A stretch of 64,000 nt of DNA from Kineococcus rhizosphaerae (GTDB taxonomy: Bacteria; Actinomycetota; Actinomycetes; Actinomycetales; Kineococcaceae), in contig NZ_PVZF01000015.1 in the NCBI RefSeq assembly GCF_003002055.1, positions 1 through 64,000 of the forward strand. Direction: 5' to 3'. The notes beneath the pieces are model-generated. The model saw only the letters and a list, made by a program, of their open reading frames with translations, had not been told where the DNA came from and searched no databases. The position numbers were made by a program, and so were the translations under genes. Position 1 is the stretch's first letter. Every line of letters begins with the position of its first letter. Positions 49,923 through 63,824 of this stretch are shown here, piece by piece.

Positions 49923-52574
49923 TCAGGTCGCCATGTCGACGAAGCGCGAGTAGTGGCCCTGGAACGCGACGGTGATCGTGTCCGTGGGGCCGTTGCGGTG
50001 CTTGGCGACGATGAAGTCCGCCTCCCCCGCCCGCGGGGACTCCTTCTCGTACATGTCCTCGCGGTGCAGCAGGATGACCATGTCGGCGTCCTGCTCGATG
50101 GACCCCGATTCACGGAGGTCCGACACCATGGGTCGCTTGTCGGTGCGCTGCTCCGGACCACGGTTCAGCTGCGACAGGGCGATGACGGGGACCTCGATCT
50201 CCTTGGCGAGGAGCTTCAGCGCGCGCGAGAACTCCGAGACCTCCTGCTGGCGGCTCTCCACCTTCTTGCCCGACGTCATGAGCTGCAGGTAGTCGACGAT
50301 GACGAGCTTGAGGTCGGCGCGCTGCTTGAGCCGCCGGCACTTGGAGCGGATCTCCATGAGCGACATGTTCGGGGAGTCGTCGATGTACAGCGGGGCGTCG
50401 TTGATGGCGCCCATGGTCTTGGCGAACCGCGTCCAGTCGCCGTCGTCCATGTTCCCCTTGCGCATCTTCTGCAGGGGGACGCGCGCCTCGGCGGACAGCA
50501 GGCGCATCGCGATCTCGTTGCGCCCCATCTCCAGGGAGAAGATGACGGAGGCCAGGCCGTGCTTGATGGAGCAGGCGCGGGCGATGTCCAGTCCCAGCGT
50601 CGAGTTGTGGGTCGGGACCATGGAGCGACCGGCGAGGTAGAGGTGGTCGGCGTTGGAGACCTCGACGCAACGGACCGGGACGGAGTCGACGCGGCGGACG
50701 TCGGTGATGAAGCGGCTGTTGCGCCGCTGGAACTGCCGCTGGCGTCGGTCCTTGTGGACCAGCTTCTTCCGTTCCAACCGGAAGACTTCGTCGTCCGTGC
50801 TGAAAGTGATCGTGTACGCCGTCGACGACTCGGCGCTCCGACCTCTGACCGCCTTCTCGCTCCACCCGGTCCGGTATCCCAAGGTGTGCAGGAGCTCACG
50901 CACCTGCTCCGCGAGTCGTCGAGAGGTCACGGTGAACTGGACGGTCCCCGACGGCGCGACGGTGCCGTCGGTGTCCAGCAGACCCGCGAGCAGTGCCCGA
51001 CGCTGCGTCTCGGAGGCGCGCAGGTAGTCGACGGGGATGTGCTTGTCACCGAGCACACCGATGGTCCGGAGCCGGGCTTGGAAGCTGCCGTGCTCGGCTC
51101 GGCAGCTGCCGCAGAGCACGAAACCGCTGGAAGGCCGACCACAAGAGGAGCAGACCGGCGGCACGGAGTAACCACCGACGCCCTTGGACCGGCCGCCGCA
51201 GCTGCGCCCACACGTCTTGACCTGCGACGTCTTGGGACGGAACTCGGTGCCGCACACCACGCAGGCCTTGGTCACCACAGGAACACCGGGAAGGCGGAGC
51301 GAGTAGACCATCGAGTCGACCTGGCGGACTTCGAGGCCTTCGTCCTCCAGGAGCAGGACCATCTCGGCGTCGGCGGTCGTGAGGCGAGCAGTCGCGCTGT
51401 GCCCGTCTCCCAGCCACGCCCCCAGCACGTAGGGCGGCACCAGGAGATCCCGGTCCGGCACCTGGAGAGGCCGGGCCAAGCTGACGGCGTGGTTGAGGCG
51501 TCGGTCGCCCGTCTCGCACCGCAGGGTGGCGGCGATCTCACCAGTGGTCCTCACCGCTTCGGCCGCTCGGCCGGGCCTGCGCGAGGCGCGCGTGCTCGTC
51601 AGCCACTGGTGCTGCTCGTCCGCGACGATCACGCTGCCGTCGGAGAAGTGCACCTCGTAGCAGGGGCGGTCGGTCATGACCTCCGTCGCCGCGACGACGG
51701 TCGTCGGCTCGCCGTCCGCGCCGATCAGCTGGTCGCCGACCGCGACCTCGCCCATCGTCGTCCAGCCGGTGGGGGTGGGCAGCGGGGTGTCGAGCGCGAG
51801 CGCCTTCCCGACCGCCGGCCGCGCCGCGATGACGATCATCTGCCCCGGGTGCAGGCCGTTGGTGAGGCTGTCGAGGTCGGCGAAGCCGGTGGGCACGCCG
51901 ACCATGCCCTCCCCGCGGTGGGAGCTGGCCTCGATCTCGTCGATGGTGCCTTCGATGACGTCCCCGAGGACGGCGTAGTCCTCCTTGGTGCGCTTCTCGG
52001 TGACGGCGTACATCTCGGCCTGGGCGGTGTTGACGACGGCCTCGACGTCCATGCCGTCGGAGCCGTAGCCCATCTGCACGATGCGGGTGCCGGCTTCGAC
52101 GAGGCGGCGCAGGACGGCGCGCTCGGCGACGATGCGGGCGTAGAAGGCGGCGTTGGCGGCCGTGGGGACGGTGGAGATGAGGTCGTGCAGGTACGGGGTG
52201 CCACCGACGCGGCTGAGCTCGCCCTTGTTGGTGAGCTCGGCGGAGACGGTGACGGGGTCGGCGGGCTCGCCGCGGGAGTACAGGTCGAGGATCGCGTCGT
52301 AGATGACCTCGTGAGCGGGGCGGTAGAAGTCCTGGCTCTTGATGACCTCGACGACGTCGGCGATGGCGTCCTTGGACAGCATCATCCCGCCGAGCACGCC
52401 CTGCTCGGCGGCGATGTCCTGGGGGGGCATCCGGTCGTAGGAGGCGCCCTCGGACCCGCGGTCGTCGCGTCCACCGCGACGCCCCTTGCCGCCGGAGCCG
52501 CCACGCCCGCCGCTGAAGCGCTCGCCGTCGTCGGGGGGCCCGAAGTCGACCGGGGGCTCGTCGTACGTGGTCAC
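49923..52574 (-). CDS. dnaB: Replicative DNA helicase DnaB, intein-containing precursor
   Basis: An 883-codon precursor from GTG 52574; removing the 400-residue intein leaves a 483-residue helicase, normal for DnaB. The N-terminal primase-interacting domain (AAEQGVLGGMMLSKDAIADV) and the RecA-like domain with Walker A ARPAVGK/ST, Walker B LVIVDYLQLM, and the Arg-finger-region LSQLNRGPEQR plus SDLRESGSIEQDADM are intact. The intein interrupts Walker A between Lys257 and the following Ser. It unwinds DNA at the replication fork. The upstream region carries DnaA-box-like sites. Confidence 0.97.
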   Translation of the reverse strand: MTTYDEPPVDFGPPDDGERFSGGRGGSGGKGRRGGRDDRGSEGASYDRMPPQDIAAEQGVLGGMMLSKDAIADVVEVIKSQDFYRPAHEVIYDAILDLYSRGEPADPVTVSAELTNKGELSRVGGTPYLHDLISTVPTAANAAFYARIVAERAVLRRLVEAGTRIVQMGYGSDGMDVEAVVNTAQAEMYAVTEKRTKEDYAVLGDVIEGTIDEIEASSHRGEGMVGVPTGFADLDSLTNGLHPGQMIVIAARPAVGKALALDTPLPTPTGWTTMGEVAVGDQLIGADGEPTTVVAATEVMTDRPCYEVHFSDGSVIVADEQHQWLTSTRASRRPGRAAEAVRTTGEIAATLRCETGDRRLNHAVSLARPLQVPDRDLLVPPYVLGAWLGDGHSATARLTTADAEMVLLLEDEGLEVRQVDSMVYSLRLPGVPVVTKACVVCGTEFRPKTSQVKTCGRSCGGRSKGVGGYSVPPVCSSCGRPSSGFVLCGSCRAEHGSFQARLRTIGVLGDKHIPVDYLRASETQRRALLAGLLDTDGTVAPSGTVQFTVTSRRLAEQVRELLHTLGYRTGWSEKAVRGRSAESSTAYTITFSTDDEVFRLERKKLVHKDRRQRQFQRRNSRFITDVRRVDSVPVRCVEVSNADHLYLAGRSMVPTHNSTLGLDIARACSIKHGLASVIFSLEMGRNEIAMRLLSAEARVPLQKMRKGNMDDGDWTRFAKTMGAINDAPLYIDDSPNMSLMEIRSKCRRLKQRADLKLVIVDYLQLMTSGKKVESRQQEVSEFSRALKLLAKEIEVPVIALSQLNRGPEQRTDKRPMVSDLRESGSIEQDADMVILLHREDMYEKESPRAGEADFIVAKHRNGPTDTITVAFQGHYSRFVDMAT
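50604..51803 (-). other. Class 3 intein within DnaB (400 residues, LAGLIDADG endonuclease plus two four-Cys modules)
   Basis: Exact borders follow from the extein: intein residues 1-400 equal precursor residues 258-657. Residue 1 is Ala (ALALDTPLPTPTGW), so the normal Cys1/Ser1 nucleophile is absent. The class 3 W-C-T set is present: Trp67 in DEQHQWLT, Cys379 in VRCVEVSNADH, Thr398 in PTHN at the C-terminus, with Asn400 and Ser +1. DOD endonuclease motifs are LGAWLGDGHS (127-136) and LLAGLLDTDG (271-280), both with acidic residues, so the endonuclease may be active. Between them are C181-x2-C-x13-C-x3-C and C218-x2-C-x9-C-x2-C, two zinc-finger-like tetrads. Confidence 0.93.
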
Positions 52575-54293: not shown

Positions 54294-54307
54294 CTGTCCG
54301 TCCGTCC

Positions 54308-54358
54308 GGACCGTTGACGCGACGGTACGAACCTATTGGACCGTCGCGTCAACGGTCC
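54308..54358. repeat. Long inverted repeat, left copy
   Basis: GGACCGTTGACGCGACGGT (54308-54326), a 13-nt loop and its exact reverse complement (54340-54358): a perfect 19-bp stem. The same arm recurs at 55417. It lies 15 bp after the MATE stop and 104 bp before the AbiEi-like gene. Confidence 0.85.
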
Positions 54359-54462
54359 GCCCCCCGATACCGCCGCGTCCACAGGGCCCAGCGCTCAGCG
54401 TGTCGTCCACAGACCGTGCGTCGGCGGCGGCAAGGACGTCGGCTTCCCGCGACCCTCCGGGG

Positions 54463-55410
54463 ATGCCTCGCCTGAACCCCTACGACCGCGCCGCCGTCGA
54501 TGAGCTGTTCCGCCCTCACGGGCTCGCCCGCTACTCGGCCCTCGTCGAGCTCGGGGTGCCGAAGTCGACGTTGACCCACAGGACACGCACCGGCGGTCGG
54601 TGGCAGCGGATCCTGCCCGGCGTCGTCCTGGGTCACAGCGGCACCCCGAGCACGGTCGAACGACGTCGGGCAGCGCTGGCCTACTGCGGGTCGGCAGCTC
54701 GCATCAGCGGGAAGCACGCCTTGGAGCTCCACGGTTCGCTGACCTCGGCCCTGCCCGCCGGTGAACCGGTCCTGGTCGTCATCCCGAACGCGCACCACCG
54801 CACGTCATCGCACTTCTGCGTCGTCGAACGCAGCGAACGGGACACGGGCGTGATGGTGCGTGGGGGCTTCCCGGTGACCTCCCCCGCCCGGGCTTGCGCG
54901 GACGCGGTGCGGGGACACGACGTGGACCTGGACGAGGTGCGGGAGCTGATGAGCGGTGTGCTGCGCCGCCGGCTGTGCACCTTGCGGCACCTCCAAGAGG
55001 AGGTCCTCAGCGGGCCCACGCAGCGCAGCGGACCAGCCCGGCGCGCCCTCGCCGAGCTCCGCTCGGGGGCACGCAGCGTGGCCGAGATCGAGGCGCAGAA
55101 GATCGTGGGGTCGTCGCGACTGCCCCAGCCGGTGTGGAACGAACCGGTCGTCGTCGACGGTCGCTGGGTCGGGAACGCCGACGCCTACTGGCCCGGCCTC
55201 GGTGTCGTGCTGGAGATCGACTCGATGCTCTGGCACCTCGGGGCCGGCAACCTGCGGCGGACCCAGGCCAAGGCTCGCCGGTACGCCGCTGCCGGACTGG
55301 TGCTCGTCTCCATCGCCCCGGCGGACCTCACCGCCGATCCCCGAGCGTTCCTGGAGCTCCTGCGCGACGCTCTCTCCCGGGCAGCCGCGCTCCGCGGCCT
55401 CACCCTGTGA
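54463..55410 (+). CDS. AbiEi-type wHTH / DUF559-nuclease-like orphan protein
   Basis: A 315-residue protein from ATG 54463; the frame is open upstream to GTG 54400. The N-terminal domain (ELGVPKSTLTHRTRTGGRWQ, RILPGVVLGHSG) resembles the type IV antitoxin AbiEi winged helix. The C-terminal part (VGNADAYWPGLGVVLEIDSM, then RTQAKARRYAAAGLVLV) has the D...ExD pattern of DUF559/Vsr-like PD-(D/E)XK folds. No AbiEii toxin is adjacent. The gene is bracketed by two copies of one inverted repeat, and its codon use looks less biased than its neighbours (more A/T, e.g. around 54700-54850). Confidence 0.75.
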   Translation: MPRLNPYDRAAVDELFRPHGLARYSALVELGVPKSTLTHRTRTGGRWQRILPGVVLGHSGTPSTVERRRAALAYCGSAARISGKHALELHGSLTSALPAGEPVLVVIPNAHHRTSSHFCVVERSERDTGVMVRGGFPVTSPARACADAVRGHDVDLDEVRELMSGVLRRRLCTLRHLQEEVLSGPTQRSGPARRALAELRSGARSVAEIEAQKIVGSSRLPQPVWNEPVVVDGRWVGNADAYWPGLGVVLEIDSMLWHLGAGNLRRTQAKARRYAAAGLVLVSIAPADLTADPRAFLELLRDALSRAAALRGLTL

Positions 55411-55416
55411 GAGGTC

Positions 55417-55467
55417 GGACCGTTGACGCGACGGTTCGATGGGTTCGTACCGATGCGTCAACGGTCC
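55417..55467. repeat. Long inverted repeat, right copy
   Basis: The arm GGACCGTTGACGCGACGGT is identical to the left copy; the right arm ACCGATGCGTCAACGGTCC has two changes. It sits between the convergent stops of the AbiEi-like gene (55410) and the LLM gene (55481), so it could also act as a bidirectional terminator. Confidence 0.82.
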
Positions 55468-55480
55468 GACTCCGGCGGCC

Positions 55481-56812
55481 TCAGAACTCCTGCAGGTTCT
55501 CCCGCAGCGTGGTGTACGTGTACCCGTCCCGGATCAGCCCGCGCCTGCGCAGCGCCGGGGCCAGGCCGTCGGTGATCTCGGCGATCTGCAGGCGCGTCGG
55601 CGGGGTGTAGAGCAGGAAGCCGTCACCGCCGACCTCGTCCATGATCTCGCCCATCTTCGCGGCCACGGTGTCCGGCGACCCCACGAGCCCGAGGTCGGTG
55701 ATCTGGAACGACTCCCCCGCCATCTGGCGCAGCGTCTTGCCCGACTGGCCCTGGAAGAGGTTGGCCAGGGAGGACCGCTCCCCGTTGCCGGCGGAGGTGT
55801 CGATCTCGTCGACGGGGGTGTCGAGGTCGATGCCGCCGAAGTCGATCCGGCCGCCGGAGGTGTACGACATGTTCCACAGGTTGTACTCGACGGCGGCGTC
55901 GGAGTACCGGGACAGCCGCGCGGCCTCGGCCTTGACCCGGGCCTCCTCGTCGGACGCCGCGACGATCGGGGTCGCCAGGAACAGCAGCTTCACGTCGGAG
56001 GGTTTGCGCCCGTGGGCGAGCAGCCGTGCGTGCACGTCGGCCCGGTAGGCCTTCATGTCCTCGACGGTCTTGCACATCGCCATCTGCGTGTCGCCGTGCG
56101 CGGCGGCGAGCTCGCGCCCCGGGACGGACCCGCCGGCGGAGGCGACGGGGATCCGGCCCTGCGGGCCCGGGACGGTGTTCAGCGGGCCGCGGGAGGAGAA
56201 CCACCGGCCCCGGAAGTCGGCCGGGTGGACCCGGGTGTGGTCGGCGTAGACCCCGTTCTCCTGGTCGGCCAGGACCGCGCCGTCCTCCCAGGTGCCCTGC
56301 AGCGCCTTGACGCACTCGATCCACTCCTGGGCCATGAGGTAGCGCTCGTCGTGGTCGAGGTGGCGCTCCATCCCGTAGTTCTGCGCGACGCGGTCGGTGA
56401 CGCTGGTCACGACGTTCATGCCGACGCGCCCGCCGGTGAGGTGGTCCAGGGTCGTGTAGAGCCGGGCCGCCAGGTAGGGGTGGTACTGGATCGTGGAGAC
56501 GGTCGGGACGATCCCGACGTGCTTCGTGCGCTGGGCCATGAGCGGCACCAGGGGCATCGGGTCGTTCTTGGGGGCCATGAACCCCCGGCGCAGCGACACC
56601 TCGGCGCTGCCGCGGAAGCTGTCCTCGACCATCGCGGTGTCCTCGATGAGGACGTAGGTGAAGCCGGCCCGTTCGAGGGAGTCGGTGAGGTCGACGTACA
56701 GGTCGGGCTTCGTCCAGTCCCGGACGTTGGTGCCCGTCCAGGGTCCGTCGACGGCCGGGTTCCACGGCTGGATGCCGAAACCGCTGCCGAGGAACCATCC
56801 GAGGTGGAACAC
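55481..56812 (-). CDS. NtaA/SnaA/DszA-family FMN-dependent monooxygenase (LLM 1)
   Basis: A 443-residue enzyme from GTG 56812 with GGAGG 6 nt upstream. The family hallmarks are FHLGWFLGSGFGIQPWNP at the start, YVLIEDTAMVEDSFRG, IVPTVSTIQYHPYLAARLYTTLDHL, GRVGMNVVTSVTDRVAQNYG and a C-terminal LGLVGSPDTVAAKMGEI. Family members oxidise nitrilotriacetate, pristinamycin or dibenzothiophene sulfone with FMNH2. A reductase partner is not in the window. It is divergent from the riboflavin kinase, with one 43-bp element facing each gene. Confidence 0.9.
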   Translation of the reverse strand: MFHLGWFLGSGFGIQPWNPAVDGPWTGTNVRDWTKPDLYVDLTDSLERAGFTYVLIEDTAMVEDSFRGSAEVSLRRGFMAPKNDPMPLVPLMAQRTKHVGIVPTVSTIQYHPYLAARLYTTLDHLTGGRVGMNVVTSVTDRVAQNYGMERHLDHDERYLMAQEWIECVKALQGTWEDGAVLADQENGVYADHTRVHPADFRGRWFSSRGPLNTVPGPQGRIPVASAGGSVPGRELAAAHGDTQMAMCKTVEDMKAYRADVHARLLAHGRKPSDVKLLFLATPIVAASDEEARVKAEAARLSRYSDAAVEYNLWNMSYTSGGRIDFGGIDLDTPVDEIDTSAGNGERSSLANLFQGQSGKTLRQMAGESFQITDLGLVGSPDTVAAKMGEIMDEVGGDGFLLYTPPTRLQIAEITDGLAPALRRRGLIRDGYTYTTLRENLQEF

Positions 56813-56876: not shown

Positions 56877-56919
56877 CGTGTTACGCGACCGCCACGCCCG
56901 CGTGACGTCCGTGTTGCGC
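56877..56919 (-). promoter_or_regulatory. 43-bp iteron element, copy for LLM 1
   Basis: On the minus strand, from 56919: GCGCAAC at offset 1, the second repeat at 14 (GTCACG), the fourth at 36 (GTAACAC). It ends 65 nt before the start codon at 56812. It is the most diverged copy. Confidence 0.55.
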
Positions 56920-56943: not shown

Positions 56944-56986
56944 GCGCAACGTGCGCGAAACGGTCCTGAACCACTCCTGAAACGTC
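56944..56986 (+). promoter_or_regulatory. 43-bp iteron element, copy for riboflavin kinase
   Basis: GCGCAAC (56944), GAAACG at offset 14, GAACCAC at 25, GAAACG at 36: four repeats with an 11-bp period. It ends 20 nt before ATG 57007. Confidence 0.68.
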
Positions 56987-57006: not shown

Positions 57007-57516
57007 ATGACGACCACCACCGCCCGCGACGCCACGACCCGCACCGCGACGGTCCCCCCGCAGCGGGACGTCGTGCTCCACGTCGAGGGCGTCGTCGAGC
57101 ACGGCGACCAGCGCGGCCGGCTGCTGGGCTTCCCCACGGCCAACATCGGCGTCCCCGAGCACGGCCTGCGCGACGGGGTGTGGGCCGGCACGGTGCAGCT
57201 CGACCCCGAGCACGACGGCCCGGTCCACGTCGCCGCCGTCTCGGTGGGCCACCGCCCCACGTACTACGGCAAGGACGGGGACCGGCTGCTCGAGGCGCAC
57301 CTGCTCGACTTCGCCGGCGACCTGTACGACCGCCGGGTGCTCGTGCGCCTGCACGTCCGGCTGCGCCCCCAGCGCCGGTTCTCCGGATCGGGTGAGCTCG
57401 TCGAGCAGATGCAGCGCGACGTCGCCGACACCCGCGCCTGGGCGGCCGCGTCCCTGCCGCGCAACGAGCCCGAAACACGCGCGGCCACGACGGGAAACAC
57501 CCCGTCCGCACAGTGA
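57007..57516 (+). CDS. Standalone riboflavin kinase-like protein
   Basis: A 169-residue protein from ATG 57007. The flavokinase domain alone is present: GVVEHGDQRGRLLGFPTANI (PTAN motif), VSVGHRPTYYGKDGDRLLEAHLLDF and YDRRVLVRLHVRLRPQRRFSG. The FAD-synthetase half of bifunctional RibF is missing. It should make FMN, the cofactor of the LLM enzymes on both sides. The last 20 residues (SLPRNEPETR...) coincide with the next iteron element, so the tail is probably shaped by it. Confidence 0.85.
   Translation: MTTTTARDATTRTATVPPQRDVVLHVEGVVEHGDQRGRLLGFPTANIGVPEHGLRDGVWAGTVQLDPEHDGPVHVAAVSVGHRPTYYGKDGDRLLEAHLLDFAGDLYDRRVLVRLHVRLRPQRRFSGSGELVEQMQRDVADTRAWAAASLPRNEPETRAATTGNTPSAQ
57459..57501 (+). 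promoter_or_regulatory. 43-bp iteron element, copy for RutA-like gene
   Basis: GCGCAAC (57459), GAAACAC at offset 14, GGCCAC at 25, GAAACACC at 36. It lies inside the 3' end of the riboflavin kinase gene and ends 19 nt before GTG 57521. Confidence 0.75.
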
Positions 57517-57520
57517 CGGC

Positions 57521-58648
57521 GTGCGCACCGGACTCTTCCTCCCCACCACGAACAACGGCTACCTCTACTCGGCGGCGGCCCCGCAGTACGCGCCCAGCTA
57601 CGCCCTGAACCGGCGGGCCACCCTGGCGGCCGAGGCCGTCGGCATGGATTTCGTCCTGTCGATGGTCAAGCACCGCGGCTACGGCGGCCCGATGGGTTTC
57701 TGGGACCAGTCGCTGGAGTCGCTGGCGATGATGGGCCCGCTCGTCGAGGCGACGAGCACGATCGGGCTGTGGGCCTCGGTCGGCGCCCCGTCGCTGCACC
57801 CGGCGATGGCGGCGAAGGCGGCCGCGGTCCTCGACGAGGCCAGCGGCGGGCGGTTCGGGCTGAACGTCGTCGGCGGCTGGAACCGCGCCGAGTACGCGCA
57901 GATGGGGTTGTGGCCCTCGGCGGACTACCACGCCCGGCGCTACGCCTACGTCGAGGAGTACCTCGACGTGGTGCGCGGGCTGTGGGAGCACGGTCGCCTC
58001 ACCCACCACGGCGAGTTCTTCGACCTCGACGACTGCCTGCTCGACCCTCGCCCGGTGCACGGGGTCACGGTCGTGGTGCCCGGCCAGAGCCCGCGCTCGC
58101 TGGCCTCGGCGGGGCGGCAGGCGGACGTGAACTTCGTCCTCGGCGACCTGCCGACGCTGGCCCGGGCCCGGCGGGGGTTGCTCGACGTGGCCCGGCCGCT
58201 GGGGCGGCGGGTCGAGAGCTGCGCCCTGTTCGGCGTGATCACCGCCCCCACGGACGCCGAGGCCGCCGACACGGCGCGGGCCTACCTGGAGGCCGCCGAC
58301 GCCGCGACACTGGCCGGGTTGCAGGCCGCCGCCGGCACCGACGCGAGCGGCACGGCCGCCAACGGCAACCTCAAGGACCAGGCCCGCGGCGTCCCTGAGA
58401 TCCGGTTCGACCACCCGGTCCAGGCGCCGGTCGTCGTCGGGCCGGGCCTCTACCAGCCGAACCTCGTGGGGTCCTACGACCGGGTCGCGGCGACGCTGGA
58501 CGCGCTGGAGACCGAGTGCGACGTCACCGGCTGCGTCCTGTCCGTGCCGGACTACACCACCGACGTGGAGATCCTGGGCGCGGAGGTCCTGCCCCGGGCC
58601 CGGACCGTCCGGCGGGCCGGCCGGGGAGCTGTCGCGCAACACGTCTGA
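57521..58648 (+). CDS. RutA-like pyrimidine/N-heterocycle monooxygenase (LLM 2)
   Basis: A 375-residue enzyme from GTG 57521, 4 nt after the kinase stop. The RutA-type N-terminus is clear: FLPTTNNGYLYSAAAPQY, FVLSMVKHRGYGGPMGFWDQ, GRFGLNVVGGWNRAEYAQMG and a late LVGSYDRVAATLDAL. RutA opens the uracil ring with a flavin-N5-peroxide; the match suggests amide or ring cleavage here. No other rut genes are present, so the substrate is probably not uracil itself. Its stop lies within the next iteron element. Confidence 0.87.
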   Translation: MRTGLFLPTTNNGYLYSAAAPQYAPSYALNRRATLAAEAVGMDFVLSMVKHRGYGGPMGFWDQSLESLAMMGPLVEATSTIGLWASVGAPSLHPAMAAKAAAVLDEASGGRFGLNVVGGWNRAEYAQMGLWPSADYHARRYAYVEEYLDVVRGLWEHGRLTHHGEFFDLDDCLLDPRPVHGVTVVVPGQSPRSLASAGRQADVNFVLGDLPTLARARRGLLDVARPLGRRVESCALFGVITAPTDAEAADTARAYLEAADAATLAGLQAAAGTDASGTAANGNLKDQARGVPEIRFDHPVQAPVVVGPGLYQPNLVGSYDRVAATLDALETECDVTGCVLSVPDYTTDVEILGAEVLPRARTVRRAGRGAVAQHV

Positions 58649-58676
58649 CACACGCGCGGGTCTCACCGGAAACACC
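58634..58676 (+). promoter_or_regulatory. 43-bp iteron element, copy for the ABC permease
   Basis: GCGCAAC (58634), GACACAC at offset 14, GGGTCT at 25, GAAACACC at 36. It spans the stop codon of the RutA-like gene and ends 56 nt before ATG 58733. Confidence 0.75.
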
Positions 58677-58732: not shown

Positions 58733-59734
58733 ATGTCCACCACGACCCAGCAGACGGCGGAGCCCACCCGGGCCCCCGCGGTCTCCCGCGCCAGCCGCGG
58801 TCTCGCCCAGCGCTACGCGCTCCTCGGGATCGGGGTGCTGCTCCTGCTCGTGTGCCTCGCCGCCATCCCCTCGTTCCGCTCGCTGCGACTGGTCACCACG
58901 ATGGTCAACGGGCAGTCGATCATCCTGCTGCTCGCCCTGACCGCCACGATCGTGCTGCGGACCGGCGACTTCGACCTGTCGATCTCGCAGACGATGGTCG
59001 GTTCGGCCGCCGTCGTCGCCGTGCTGTCCGGCCACGGCGTCTCCCCCGCGCTGGCGATCGCGCTGGCCCTGCTGCTGGGGCTGGCGGTGGGAGCGCTCAA
59101 CGCCCTGCTGGTGGTCGTCATCGGCGTCGACTCGTTCGTCACCACCCTGGGGTCCTTCACGGCGATGGCGGGGTTCTGCTACCTCGTGACCGGCTCGCGG
59201 ATCGTCGCCGGCGTACCCGACTTCTTCGTGAACTTCTCCCGCTCGACCGTCGCCGGGATCCCCACGGTGACGATCTACGCGTGGGTGCTCGTCGTGGTCC
59301 TGTGGTTCGTGTACCAGCGCACCCCGCTGGGCCGGTACACCCTGTTCATCGGCGGGAACCGCAACGCCGCGCGACTGGCGGGGCTGCGGGTCAGCGCCAT
59401 CCGCATCGGCGCGTACCTGGTCTCCGGCGTCCTCGCCTCGTTCATCGGCGTCGTGTTCGCGGGGTACTTCGGCGCGGTCGACCCGTCGGTCGGCGGCCAG
59501 TACATGCTGCAGCCGTTCGCCGCGGTCTACCTGGGCGCCACCGCCCTGGCCGTGGGCCGGTTCAACGCCGTGGGGACGCTCGTCGCGCTCTACCTGCTGA
59601 CCATCGGCATCACCGGGTTGCAGCTGCTCGGCGCCCAGACGTGGGTGACGAACGTCTTCTACGGCCTGGCCCTGATGATCGCCGTGACCGCTGCGAAGCT
59701 GGCCGGCCGCAAGACCCGGGCGGGACTGTCGTGA
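58733..59734 (+). CDS. CUT2-type ABC transporter permease (RbsC-like)
   Basis: A 333-residue protein from ATG 58733 with about nine helices. BPD_transp_2 features: LLLALTATIVLRTGDFDLSI, LLGLAVGALNALLVVVIGVDSFVTTLG, VYQRTPLGRYTLFIGGNRNAARLAG and YFGAVDPSVGGQYMLQPFAAVYLGA. It imports with the ATPase and binding protein downstream. Its stop overlaps the ATPase start by 4 bp. Confidence 0.92.
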   Translation: MSTTTQQTAEPTRAPAVSRASRGLAQRYALLGIGVLLLLVCLAAIPSFRSLRLVTTMVNGQSIILLLALTATIVLRTGDFDLSISQTMVGSAAVVAVLSGHGVSPALAIALALLLGLAVGALNALLVVVIGVDSFVTTLGSFTAMAGFCYLVTGSRIVAGVPDFFVNFSRSTVAGIPTVTIYAWVLVVVLWFVYQRTPLGRYTLFIGGNRNAARLAGLRVSAIRIGAYLVSGVLASFIGVVFAGYFGAVDPSVGGQYMLQPFAAVYLGATALAVGRFNAVGTLVALYLLTIGITGLQLLGAQTWVTNVFYGLALMIAVTAAKLAGRKTRAGLS

Positions 59735-61266
59735 CCGCCGCCCTGGAGGTCCGCGGGATGGTCAAGTCCTACGGCGGCGCCCGCGCCCTCGACGGTCTCG
59801 ACCTGCACGTCGCCGCCGGCGAGGTGCACGCCCTGCTCGGGCAGAACGGCTGCGGGAAGTCGACGCTCGTCAAGGCGCTCACCGGGGTGCACAGCCCCGA
59901 CAGCGGTGTCGCCACGGTGTTCGGCAGGGAACTCACCTACCCGGTCACCGCCCCGCACACCCACGGGATCGCCGTCATCCACCAGGACATCGGCGTCGTG
60001 GACCAGATGACCGTCCTGGAGAACCTCGGCGTCAACGCCGGGTACGGGACGCGGCTGCTCGGGGCCGTGAACACCCGCCGGGAGAAGCGCGTCTACGGCG
60101 ACCTCATGGACCGCCTCGACATCTCCCTGCCCTTCGACACCCTGGTCTCCGACCTCGCCCCCGCCGAGCGCTCGCTGCTGGCGGTGGTGCGCGCGATGCG
60201 GCTCCTCGAGGCGCACGAGGGCGCGGGCCAGTTGTTCATCCTCGACGAACCCACCGCGGCGCTGTCCGGCGGGGAGGCAGAGCGGCTGCTGGCCCTCATG
60301 CGGCGGATGGCCGACCTGGGTGCGGGGGTCGTCTTCATCTCCCACCGCCTCGCCGAGGTCATGGAGGTCTGCGACTCCATGACGGTGGTGCGCGCGGGAC
60401 GGGCCGTGGCCACCTCGCCCGTCGCGCGGACGACGCGCGAGGACATCGTGGCCGCCATGCTCGGTCGGCGGATGGAGGACTTCTTCCCCGCCCCGCCGCC
60501 CGAACCGGTCCGCAGCGGGGTGAACTCCGCCCGGACCCGGCTCGTCGTCGACGGCCTGTCCGGTGACGTGGTGCAGGACGCGACGTTCACGGTGCACGCC
60601 GGGGAGGTCGTCGGGGTCACGGGCCTGGCCGGGATGGGCCAGGAGGAACTGCCCGGCCTCATCGCCGGCGTCACCACCCCGCGGCGCGGGTACGCGAGCG
60701 TCGACGGGACCCGGCTGGCGGGCCGGTCCCCGCGCGAGGCCATCGACGCCACCCTCGCCCTCGTCCCGGGAAACCGGCTGCGGGACGGCTGCTGGATCGC
60801 GGGGTCGGCCGCGGAGAACCTCACGCTGCCCGTGCTGTCCCGGTTCGCCCGGCCCTGGGGCATCGACTCCGCCGCCGAGACGGACCACGCCGCAGAGCGC
60901 ATGGCGGAGGTCGGCACGTTCCCGAACGACCCCCGGTTGCCGATGGCCGCGTTCTCCGGGGGGAACCAGCAGAAGGTCGTGTTCGCCAAGTGGCTGCAGA
61001 CCGGCCCCGGGGTGCTGCTCCTGGACGAACCCACGCAGGGCGTCGACCCCGGCGCCGCCCACGACCTGCTGGAGGACGTCGTGGAGATCGCCGAGCGGGG
61101 ATCGGCCGTCGTCGTGTTCTCCGGCGACCACGAGCAGCTCGCCGCGATCTGCCACCGCGTGCTCGTCCTGCACCACGGCCGGACCGTCGCCGAGATCACC
61201 CGCGCCTCCGGCGAACTCACCGAGGCGAACCTCCTGCACGCCTGCGAGACCCCCGCAGCCGCCTGA
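59731..61266 (+). CDS. CUT2-type ABC transporter ATPase (RbsA-like, two domains)
   Basis: A 511-residue tandem ATPase from GTG 59731. Domain 1: Walker A GQNGCGKSTLVKAL, Walker B LFILDEPTAALSGGE; its signature helix is degenerate (DLAPAERSLLAVVRAM). Domain 2 has the degenerate GLAGMGQEEL in place of Walker A, the signature FSGGNQQKVVFAKWL and LLLDEPTQGVDPGA. This asymmetry is normal for RbsA/MglA. It energises the permease at 58733. Confidence 0.93.
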   Translation: MTAALEVRGMVKSYGGARALDGLDLHVAAGEVHALLGQNGCGKSTLVKALTGVHSPDSGVATVFGRELTYPVTAPHTHGIAVIHQDIGVVDQMTVLENLGVNAGYGTRLLGAVNTRREKRVYGDLMDRLDISLPFDTLVSDLAPAERSLLAVVRAMRLLEAHEGAGQLFILDEPTAALSGGEAERLLALMRRMADLGAGVVFISHRLAEVMEVCDSMTVVRAGRAVATSPVARTTREDIVAAMLGRRMEDFFPAPPPEPVRSGVNSARTRLVVDGLSGDVVQDATFTVHAGEVVGVTGLAGMGQEELPGLIAGVTTPRRGYASVDGTRLAGRSPREAIDATLALVPGNRLRDGCWIAGSAAENLTLPVLSRFARPWGIDSAAETDHAAERMAEVGTFPNDPRLPMAAFSGGNQQKVVFAKWLQTGPGVLLLDEPTQGVDPGAAHDLLEDVVEIAERGSAVVVFSGDHEQLAAICHRVLVLHHGRTVAEITRASGELTEANLLHACETPAAA

Positions 61267-61275
61267 CCCCCTGCC

Positions 61276-61318
61276 GCGCAACGCGCCCGACACACGACCG
61301 ACGCCACCACGACACACG
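61276..61318 (+). promoter_or_regulatory. 43-bp iteron element, copy for the binding protein
   Basis: GCGCAAC (61276), GACACAC at offset 14, GACGCC at 25, GACACACG at 36: the clearest four-fold 11-bp repetition. It ends 47 nt before ATG 61366. Confidence 0.75.
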
Positions 61319-61365: not shown

Positions 61366-62517
61366 ATGTCCCGCAACGCCTCCCACTTCCGGGGGTTGCT
61401 CGCCCTCGCGGCGGTGCCGGTCGTCGCCCTGAGCGCCTGCGCCTCGGCGACCGGCGCCTCGTCGAGCTCGGCGGCCTCCTCGGCCCCCGTCACGGGCGCC
61501 GCCGCCGAGTGCGCCGCCCAGGCGAAGAAGGACGTCGACGCCAAGCGCGAACCCCTCGACCTCGTCGTGCCCACGCAGTCCATCGACGTCGGCGCCCTGA
61601 AGGGCAAGAGCCTGTGGTTCATCACCGTCACGATGAACCAGTTCTCGACCGACATGGCCGTGGGGATCAAGGAGGCCGCCACGGCGGCCGGCCTGAGCAC
61701 CGTGCTGTACGACGGGCAGGGGTCGGCGAACCGCTTCACCGAGGGCATGAACCAGGCCATCGCGCAGCGCGCCGGCGGCATCGTCCTCGTCGGCATCGAG
61801 CCCTCGCTCATCTCCGCCGAGCTCAGCGCAGCGAAGGCCGCCGGGATCCCCGTCCTGAACACCCTGAACTCCAACCCCGACGAGGCCGTCCCCGACGGGA
61901 TGTTCGCGAACTTCACCGCCGACTTCACCGCCGACGGCAAGACCGCCGCGGAGTGGGCGCTCAACGACTCCGGCTGCTCCACCGACGTGATCGTCGTGAA
62001 GTCCAGCACCATCCCGGTGTGGAACCACCTGGCCGACGGGGCCGTCGACGCCGTGAAGGAGCTGTGCCCGGACGACTGCGAGACCACCGTCCTGGACGTC
62101 GACGCCGCGAACATCGCCACCGACCTCGCGAGCAAGCTGCAGACGGCGCTGCAGAAAGACCCCGACGTGAACTACGTCTTCGTCGTCTGGGACTCCGGCG
62201 TGCCCTACGCCCAGCCCGTCGTCGCCTCGTCCGGGACGAAGGCGAAGATCATCGCCCGCGACGGCATCGCCCCCAGCCTGCAGATGGTGGCCGCCGGGAC
62301 GCAGGCGCTCACCGTCGCCACCCCGCCGCCGGGCTGGATCGGCTGGGCAGCCGCCGACGACGTCTTCCGCGCCATGCTGGGCGCCGAGCCGAGCGGACTG
62401 GTCATCCCGACCCGGCTCATCGACAAGGACAACGTCGGCTCCGGCAGCGACGCCGACGTCTCCCCGAACTACACCGACTACCAGTCCGCCTTCTCGAAGC
62501 TGTGGGGTGTCGCGTGA
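61366..62517 (+). CDS. CUT2-type substrate-binding lipoprotein
   Basis: A 383-residue protein from ATG 61366. The lipoprotein signal ends in VVALSACAS (lipobox Cys), and a Ser/Ala linker follows. The periplasmic-binding domain reads KSLWFITVTMNQFSTDMAVG, GGIVLVGIEPSLISAELSAAK, IPVLNTLNSN and SKLWGVA at the end. It captures the substrate for the importer. Its stop overlaps the start of LLM 3 by 4 bp, directly linking uptake and oxidation. Confidence 0.92.
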   Translation: MSRNASHFRGLLALAAVPVVALSACASATGASSSSAASSAPVTGAAAECAAQAKKDVDAKREPLDLVVPTQSIDVGALKGKSLWFITVTMNQFSTDMAVGIKEAATAAGLSTVLYDGQGSANRFTEGMNQAIAQRAGGIVLVGIEPSLISAELSAAKAAGIPVLNTLNSNPDEAVPDGMFANFTADFTADGKTAAEWALNDSGCSTDVIVVKSSTIPVWNHLADGAVDAVKELCPDDCETTVLDVDAANIATDLASKLQTALQKDPDVNYVFVVWDSGVPYAQPVVASSGTKAKIIARDGIAPSLQMVAAGTQALTVATPPPGWIGWAAADDVFRAMLGAEPSGLVIPTRLIDKDNVGSGSDADVSPNYTDYQSAFSKLWGVA

Positions 62518-63824
62518 GCTCCGCCGACCCGTTCCGCCTCGGCTGGTTCGGCAACATCGCCAGCCCCGAGTGGAAGAACGCCTACCCGGGCAACGACGCG
62601 CGCCAGTGGACGAACGGCCGGTTCTACGTCGACATGGTCCGCAACATGGAACGGGCCGGGTTCGACTTCATGATGCTCGAGGACTCCCTCATGGTCCCCG
62701 ACATCTACGCCGGGACCGCCGAGCTGGAGCTCAAGCACGCCCGCTACGCCCCCAAGCTCGACCCCGTGCCCATCGTCTCGATGCTGGCCTACGCGACCCG
62801 GCACATCGGGATCGTCGCCACCGCCTCGACGACCTTCTACCACCCCTACCACCTGGCGCGGCAGTTCTCGACGCTGGACCACGTCACCGAGGGGCGGGTC
62901 GGCTGGAACGTCGTCACCAGCTCGGAGGACCGGGCCGCGCAGAACTACGGCCTCGACGCGCTGCCCGAGCACGACCTGCGCTACGAGATGGCCGAGGAGT
63001 TCCTGGAGGTCACCGACGCGCTGTGGAACTCGTGGGACGCCGACGCGATCGTCGCCGACCGGGAGACGGGGTACTACGCGGACTTCCGCAAGGTGCACAC
63101 CGTCGACCACGTCGGCAAGCACTACCGGTCGCGCGGGCCGCTCAACACGCCCCGCAGCCCGCAGGGCCGGCCCGTCATCTGCCAGGCCGGCGGGTCCCCC
63201 CGCGGGCGGGACTTCGCCGCGCGCAACGCGGACATGCTGCTGAACATCCCCAACGGGATCGAGGGCATGAAGAACTACCGCGACGACATCCGCCGGCGCG
63301 CGGCGGGCTTCGGCCGCAACCCCGACGAGATCAAGACGTTCTTCGTCATCTACCCGATGATCGCCCCGACCGACGAGGAGGCCCGGGCCAAGAACGAGGC
63401 GTGGTACGCCCGGGAGCAGCACAACCTCGAGGTCCAGCTCGCCCACTTCGCGGCGACCATGGAGATCGACTTCTCCCGGTTCGACCTCGACGCCCCCATC
63501 CCCGAGGACGTCACGACGAACGGCCACCAGTCCCAGCTGGAGAACTGGCGCCGTTCGCTGGGCGGGAAGACCATCCGCGAGGGCATGTCCCGCATGCGGG
63601 TGCAGTCCATCGAGCTCGTCGGCTCCCCCGACACCGTCGCCGCGCAGCTCGACGAGGCGATGCAGGAGGTGGGCGGCGACGGCTTCCTGATCTACGGCCA
63701 GCCCATCAGCCGCGAGTACGTCGCCGAGATGACCGATGGTCTGTGCCCGGCGCTGCAGCGGCGCGGGCTGCTGCGCACGGAGTTCTCCCACCCGACGTTC
63801 CGGGAGAACCTCCGCTCCTTCTGA
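62514..63824 (+). CDS. NtaA/SnaA/DszA-family FMN-dependent monooxygenase (LLM 3)
   Basis: A 436-residue enzyme from GTG 62514, translationally coupled to the binding protein. Motifs parallel LLM 1: FRLGWFGNIASPEWKN, FMMLEDSLMVPDIYAG, IVATASTTFYHPYHLARQFSTLDHV, GRVGWNVVTSSEDRAAQNYG, QAGGSPRGRDFAARN and IELVGSPDTVAAQLDEAM. It lacks the GIQPWNP insertion of LLM 1, so the two probably act on different intermediates. Coupling to a solute receptor suggests it acts first on the imported compound. Confidence 0.9.
   Translation: MSSADPFRLGWFGNIASPEWKNAYPGNDARQWTNGRFYVDMVRNMERAGFDFMMLEDSLMVPDIYAGTAELELKHARYAPKLDPVPIVSMLAYATRHIGIVATASTTFYHPYHLARQFSTLDHVTEGRVGWNVVTSSEDRAAQNYGLDALPEHDLRYEMAEEFLEVTDALWNSWDADAIVADRETGYYADFRKVHTVDHVGKHYRSRGPLNTPRSPQGRPVICQAGGSPRGRDFAARNADMLLNIPNGIEGMKNYRDDIRRRAAGFGRNPDEIKTFFVIYPMIAPTDEEARAKNEAWYAREQHNLEVQLAHFAATMEIDFSRFDLDAPIPEDVTTNGHQSQLENWRRSLGGKTIREGMSRMRVQSIELVGSPDTVAAQLDEAMQEVGGDGFLIYGQPISREYVAEMTDGLCPALQRRGLLRTEFSHPTFRENLRSF

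Follow-up and report, generated by a model that had tools for sequence, protein, structure and literature searches.

A stretch of 64,000 nucleotides from Kineococcus rhizosphaerae (contig NZ_PVZF01000015.1, positions 1 to 64,000; hereafter the window) encodes a stand-alone riboflavin kinase (RFK) among LLM monooxygenase and ABC-importer genes. We consider it reasonably probable that this RFK is active, that GlnR co-expresses it with the monooxygenases and the importer under nitrogen limitation, and that it supplies FMN. FMN usually counts as a housekeeping cofactor, the product of a single bifunctional enzyme. Why, then, would a genome with a complete RibF place a further kinase beside FMN-type monooxygenases?

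A kinase domain among monooxygenase genes

The preliminary description of this DNA had claimed that only the kinase half of RibF is present, and the domain searches bear this out. Flavokinase (PF01687) is the sole Pfam domain of the protein, spanning residues 25-145 with an E-value of 8.6e-32 and 110.4 bits against a curated cut-off of 19.6, which makes it a member of that family. Seven RibF models of NCBIfam match it as well, every one below its cut-off, which leaves it outside the bifunctional RibFs, and the Pfam scan found no FAD-synthetase domain in it. Residues T44, N46 and E96 align with T208, N210 and E268 of CaFADS and thereby occupy what we take to be the catalytic positions; the PTAN motif and the catalytic glutamate of the RFK family are both present. 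None of the three residues varies among the 41 stand-alone RFKs that were aligned. The deposited structures of CaFADS include an E268D mutant, which supports a role for E268.

In an alignment with solved structures, the protein resembles the RFK modules of RibF and the human and yeast riboflavin kinases. Its AlphaFold2 model (pLDDT 82.1, pTM 0.72) returned 36 Foldseek matches at an E-value of 0.001 or better. Apart from two chains of 3op1, all are entries for riboflavin kinase, FAD synthetase or TM379; 3op1 was deposited as a macrolide-efflux protein, yet its sequence aligns to the same RFK domain. Judged by its domain, predicted fold and conserved active-site residues, the protein is probably an active, ATP-dependent riboflavin kinase. 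Could it be a fragment of a broken RibF? We rejected this candidate: no FAD-synthetase domain was found in the RFK or in the seven neighbouring proteins scanned, and its closest relatives among those listed likewise stand alone. A search for the TetR-like HTH domain of some relatives, fused or adjacent, found none in the RFK or in the window.

The gene was said to lie between two oxygenase genes, and both neighbours are indeed Bac_luciferase (LLM) proteins, an FMN-type family (Table 1). The upstream, divergent neighbour belongs by its TIGR03860 score to the NtaA/DmoA subfamily of FMN-dependent monooxygenases. The downstream one starts after a gap of only 4 bp and, with RutA (TIGR03612) as its best model, falls below the equivalog cut-off of 498.3 bits. 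An ABC importer and a third LLM gene follow, and two more LLM proteins are encoded past the window on the minus strand (C15:64623-66874), so that the cluster covers C15:55481-66874. Scans of the genome with Flavin_Reduct and a local profile found no flavin-reductase gene in this cluster, and among its Pfam and NCBIfam matches neither RutB, RutF nor any other Rut gene is named. The substrate-binding protein was found in one of 11 genomes of the genus at an E-value of at most 1e-40, its own; this and the lack of a flavin-reductase gene in the cluster count against our main reading.

Two further features of the window were noted. Direct repeats of 58 nt (54307-54364 and 55416-55473; 79% identical, each hairpin-like by eye) enclose a gene at 54463-55410 whose product has no Pfam family. 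Between the two halves of the DnaB replicative helicase (49923-52574, minus strand) lies an insert that contains a LAGLIDADG domain and is probably an intein, placed in the P-loop region.

Table 1. Coordinates of features in the window and of riboswitches at other stand-alone RFK loci.
Feature	Position	Strand	Remarks
LLM monooxygenase, NtaA/DmoA family	55481..56812	-	Bac_luciferase; TIGR03860 342.7 bits, cut-off 279.7
GlnR-type box before divergent NtaA/DmoA-family LLM	56880..56917	-	
GlnR-type box before RFK	56946..56983	+	half-sites 0/11/33, score 26.7; ends 23 bp before ATG
Stand-alone riboflavin kinase (RFK), 169 aa	57007..57516	+	ATG; only Pfam domain Flavokinase
GlnR-type box before RutA-like LLM	57461..57498	+	inside 3' end of RFK ORF, residues 152-164
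LLM monooxygenase, RutA-like	57521..58648	+	Bac_luciferase; best model RutA (TIGR03612), 286.3 bits
GlnR-type box before permease gene	58636..58673	+	
ABC permease (BPD_transp_2)	58733..59734	+	Pfam
Double ABC ATPase, sugar-importer type	59731..61266	+	Pfam, NCBIfam
GlnR-type box before substrate-binding protein gene	61278..61315	+	
Periplasmic substrate-binding protein (Peripla_BP_4)	61366..62517	+	Pfam
LLM monooxygenase, NtaA/DmoA family	62514..63824	+	TIGR03860 437 bits, cut-off 279.7
SAM riboswitch	L012:3539-3625	+	head of RFK-holding ABC operon
SAM riboswitch	L047:1805-1891	+	head of RFK-holding ABC operon (G078)
SAM-IV riboswitch	L048:4565-4678	-	before stand-alone RFK
SAM-IV riboswitch	L050:7836-7948	+	before stand-alone RFK
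SAM-IV riboswitch	L059:7849-7961	+	before stand-alone RFK

The 43-bp element and its GlnR-type half-sites

The RFK gene had been credited with its own copy of a 43-bp element and, through it, with co-regulation with FMN enzymes. That copy exists and the element is shared with the LLM genes; what we refine is its nature, a candidate GlnR-type nitrogen box. Half-sites follow an 11-bp periodicity, at offsets 0, 11 and 33 in all six copies and weakly at 22, and these 5-bp half-sites of the GnnAC type, 6 bp apart, give the GlnR-box pattern in each of the six. The scoring matrix was derived from the window's own boxes; the five copies from which it was built score 37.3-45.7, three Markov sequences of 64 kb reach no more than 22.2, and the sixth, before the next LLM gene (C15:66937-66974), was found without being used for the matrix. 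In 640 kb of Markov sequence no score exceeded 17.7. Elsewhere in the genome, a box of the same type stands upstream of the single amtB match (L056, score 22.3) and at three of five glutamine-synthetase-family loci. The best glutamine-synthetase match (L138, 26.8) and a glutamine-synthetase-like gene (L141, 24.1) are each preceded by one, and a third locus (L142, 26.8) carries it at its predicted start. The remaining two, L139 and L140, have no box, which counts against the GlnR assignment. Passages of published work give the actinomycete GlnR box as gTnAc-n6-GaAAc, often doubled as a-b-a-b (PMC3087709, PMC10704036). We read the element as a GlnR-type box because the same type occurs at amtB and glutamine-synthetase genes and fits the published boxes, and the condition that induces the cluster would then probably be nitrogen limitation.

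The distance between box and start codon differs among the copies, being 23 bp for the RFK, 22 bp for the RutA-like gene and 50-67 bp for the remaining four. Gaps of 22-23 bp count against our main reading in that they require a leaderless mRNA, a different start codon, or repression rather than activation; the centres of these two boxes, about 42 bp upstream of the start codons, would suit GlnR activation of leaderless mRNAs. Because the box of the RutA-like gene sits within the RFK reading frame, the C-terminal tail of the kinase is probably a read-through of this regulatory site.

It also counts against this reading that only two of the six stand-alone RFK loci of this genome have a box in their gene cluster, that of the window (C15) and C14:159771 (L014, scores 21.6 and 18.2), the latter conserved in G078 (L045, 21.6 and 18.0). 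No box scoring at least 16 was found at L009, L011 or L012, and the one at the C3 locus (L013) is that of a glutamine-synthetase-like gene at a distance of 8 kb. Riboswitch control of the window RFK was considered and ruled out, as the window holds no Rfam family, FMN and SAM riboswitches included.

Stand-alone kinases in the genome and among relatives

Seven Flavokinase matches were obtained in the genome (5.6 Mb, 99.99% complete), namely six stand-alone RFKs and one complete RibF; the full-length enzyme expected elsewhere is thus present (G000:C1, kinase domain 785297-785686). The arrangement had been called rare. This holds for the order, where 118 of 119 genomes, our own included, have a Flavokinase match and only six of the 118 others (G078, G032, G092, G085, G101 and G075) have more than one. 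It holds less well in that six stand-alone copies occur here, the kind appears in many Actinomycetota, and RibR offers a precedent. Within the genus, five of 11 genomes have extra RFK matches (one of those in G032 is partial) and six have none. LLM matches number 67 in the genome; an LLM gene lies within 3.5 kb of four of its six stand-alone RFKs (random-placement P 2.7e-4, for a distance chosen after the distances had been seen), and the other two have their nearest LLM gene at 19 and 193 kb, RibF at 62.7 kb. Two of the four Flavin_Reduct matches are near stand-alone RFKs (C1:574021 and C3:165054), and a local profile adds a third RFK-near flavin reductase, after the RFK at C14:159771, which is cut by the contig end.

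Is this company typical of such kinases? We compared the 80 listed of 255 relatives from a scan of named genomes, which local profiles divided into 51 stand-alone RFKs and 29 RibFs. L136, whose contig starts only shortly ahead of the RFK with a stretch resembling the end of a RibF, was taken as a cut RibF and removed from the stand-alone set, leaving 50. Of these 50 stand-alone loci, 30 have an LLM or flavin-reductase gene within 8 kb (28 within 5 kb, 20 within 3 kb), as against none of the 29 RibF loci; taken separately, LLM genes are within 8 kb at 24 stand-alone loci and flavin reductases at 20. At least one flank is shorter than 7 kb at 21 of the 29 RibF loci and nine of the 50 stand-alone loci; where both flanks reach at least 7 kb, the counts are 26 of 41 against zero of eight. 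A second control, RibF loci with flanks of about 8 kb from 20 genomes of the order, gave zero of 20, and both controls together set 30 of 50 against zero of 49 (Fisher P 3e-12). Neighbours of RFKs supplied part of the seeds for the local LLM profiles, identical profiles being used on the controls, and the 60% share may be inflated because the stand-alone set was picked by similarity to LLM-near RFKs. Against our main reading counts that 20 of the 50, among them L057, the closest relative of those listed, have neither gene within the available flanks. These 20 also include six Amycolatopsis loci of one conserved gene order (L087, L089, L096, L097, L104 and L111, about 4.6-8.4 kb). L087, the only one of the six that was domain-scanned, encodes a KshA-type Rieske oxygenase, its reductase and a MaoC hydratase, followed by the RFK.

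Of the 65 stand-alone rows in the tree, 60 fall into a single actinobacterial clade (98/96), away from the RibFs of the order and from the RibF of this genome, and on this ground we rejected a recent detachment of the window RFK from the ribF of its own genome. Five rows (L052, L053, L091, L106 and L117) fall outside on long branches, and the tree implies four label changes (3-5 in bootstrap trees) from few alignment columns, so a single origin for all 65 does not follow. The window RFK groups, not strongly (90/74), with that of L046 in G078, whose operon also encodes a RutA above the cut-off, an amidase and an isochorismatase-fold protein; a weaker box, scoring 19.4, precedes this RutA.

Relatives are wired in other ways as well. 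A SAM-IV riboswitch stands directly before the RFK in three genomes of the genus, ending 30 bp (L059), 38 bp (L050) and 110 bp (L048) from the predicted start, and the RFK at C14:23031 (L012) ends a tight series of five genes in an ABC operon that has a SAM riboswitch at its head, an order repeated in G078 (L047). All 50 named stand-alone loci were scanned for SAM riboswitches, and L059 alone has one. A TetR-like HTH domain of about 80 residues accompanies the RFK in 22 loci, in a search of the window and the available loci, nearly all of them centred on RFK or RibF genes. It is fused C-terminally in 14 (L009, L044, L051 and 11 named loci; for example L072:7929-8621 and L009:10127-10786) and encoded next to the RFK by a small ORF of its own in eight (L011, L014, L045, L073, L074, L075, L085 and L103). 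Seven HTH tails gave no Pfam family at an E-value of at most 1, one of these gave no NCBIfam family, and two separate small ORFs gave no Pfam family; the whole L009 protein has one weak MerR_1 match, below the cut-off. The TetR-like assignment comes from the model of L072 (pLDDT 72.2, pTM 0.52), in which the tail is predicted to be a helical bundle: it matches TetR N-terminal DNA-binding domains at Z 5.8-6.9, a level that may mean a common arrangement only, and Foldseek placed NalC at rank 50 with an E-value of 0.083. Two fusions of other kinds were seen. At L052:6877-8595 (minus strand, G101), the RFK is the C-terminal part of an MFS transporter fusion, and neighbouring genes encode two LLM proteins, one of them RutA-like, as well as a flavin reductase and a weakly RutB-like protein; at L080:7959-9752 (plus strand) of Arthrobacter sp. 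SO3, RFK and aldehyde dehydrogenase are fused in frame.

Proposed role and comparison with known systems

How might these parts work together? When nitrogen is short, GlnR would bind the 11-bp-period boxes before the RFK, LLM and ABC-importer genes, and kinase, importer and monooxygenases would rise together. The importer would take up an organic nitrogen compound, perhaps a pyrimidine-like ring or an amine, which the RutA-like and NtaA/DmoA-family enzymes would attack using O2 and reduced FMN. Ring-nitrogen compounds are suggested by the RutA-like neighbour and by the L046 operon in G078. The extra RFK would convert riboflavin to FMN, so that the LLM enzymes would not rely on the housekeeping RibF alone, and a flavin reductase encoded elsewhere would reduce it. 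FMN may then rise without FAD, as the preliminary description expected, though RibF, being intact, could turn the surplus into FAD by adenylation. Kinase activity, GlnR binding, the direction of regulation, the substrate and the effect on FMN are the parts of this explanation that we infer.

An active RFK might instead serve a general role, trapping riboflavin or shifting flavin homeostasis in starvation, with the LLM genes nearby through shared regulation only. We think this unlikely, even though RibR, according to passages in the literature, acts on FMN riboswitches (PMC12542839, PMC7693651, PMC13028884), two of the six RFKs of this genome have no LLM gene within 19 kb, 20 of the 50 named loci lack both LLM and flavin reductase in the available flanks, and the box is a global nitrogen box rather than a pathway-specific one. 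Against it, stand-alone RFKs show an enrichment of LLM or flavin-reductase genes nearby that RibF loci lack altogether, a mere 4 bp separate the RFK from the RutA-like gene, the window has no FMN riboswitch, and relatives are fused to or lie beside pathway genes (MFS, aldehyde dehydrogenase, flavin reductase). Does the cluster then handle nitrogen compounds at all? The NtaA/DmoA family includes monooxygenases of sulfur compounds, and other RFKs of the genus are sulfur-wired through SAM riboswitches; an active RFK in a cluster for organosulfur or other compounds, its boxes bound by another OmpR-type regulator such as PhoP, would accommodate both facts. A sulfur role was considered for the window copy on the second ground and set aside, the boxes here being of the nitrogen type. 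Their sharing with amtB and three glutamine-synthetase-family genes, their fit to printed GlnR boxes and the lack of a SAM riboswitch in the window make this explanation improbable in our view. Lastly, the RFK could be a passenger, a decaying paralogue or a protein of changed function that no longer phosphorylates riboflavin, as six stand-alone paralogues in one genome and the six of 11 genus genomes without any might suggest; with invariant active-site residues, an intact reading frame and a box of its own, we regard this as very improbable.

Beyond the window, we put forward more tentatively, at somewhat less than even confidence, that Actinobacteria use such kinases as a plug-in module for FMN supply, with several RFKs per genome, each joined to its own signal and monooxygenase set. 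The signals would be nitrogen through GlnR boxes, sulfur through SAM-I and SAM-IV riboswitches, and, in the forms with a fused or adjacent TetR-like HTH, perhaps flavin itself, the kinase domain acting as the sensor of a flavin-reading transcription factor. If RFKs are pathway-specific and under nitrogen or sulfur control, cofactor supply joins the nutrient-starvation regulons, and adding the matching RFK would be a practical handle for expressing LLM monooxygenases that degrade nitrogen- or sulfur-containing compounds. Among the relatives, those that bear an HTH are a testable candidate for a bacterial flavin-sensing regulator of unusual build.

In titles, the beginnings of abstracts and passages of the chiefly open-access literature, we found no description of this RFK/LLM/GlnR system. 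Among known systems, the Rut pathway has the idea of an FMN-type LLM under nitrogen control in common with our proposal, and the L046 operon contains a RutA above the cut-off; the window LLM differs in scoring below it, with no other Rut gene named in the cluster. The RFK module of bifunctional RibF (C. ammoniagenes 5a88, 2x0k) has the same domain, predicted fold and active-site residues, whereas the window RFK has no FAD-synthetase module and belongs to the separate stand-alone clade. The kinase of archaeal RbkR has a CTP-dependent fold unrelated to the ATP-type RFK. According to passages of the source, RbkR combines riboflavin kinase and regulator in a single chain with an N-terminal HTH (PMC8305020). 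The likeness is limited to the HTH-bearing relatives, which also join kinase and DNA-binding HTH in one chain; their TetR-like HTH is C-terminal, on an ATP-type RFK, so that a sensor of this kind, part of the tentative module proposed above, would parallel RbkR with unrelated parts.

A functional precedent is RibR. In its operon, ytmIJKLMNO-ytnIJ-ribR-ytnLM, we take YtmO and YtnJ to be FMN-type monooxygenases. Passages of published work describe it as a monofunctional flavokinase of B. subtilis beside a complete RibFC, in a sulfur operon (PMC7693651, PMC2743287), and as an RNA-binding protein (PMC12542839, PMC7693651, PMC13028884); monofunctional RFKs are called rare in eubacteria in part of a 2025 review (PMC12542839). 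A monofunctional flavokinase within a nutrient operon is thus already known. RibR itself was outside our comparison and our tree, and differs in its sulfur control and probably in its RNA binding, whereas the window RFK has nitrogen-type boxes, a short tail of 24 residues after residue 145, and five further stand-alone copies in its genome. Like RibR, the window RFK is a predicted monofunctional flavokinase that accompanies a complete RibF and lies with FMN-type monooxygenases inside a putative nutrient-scavenging transcription unit.
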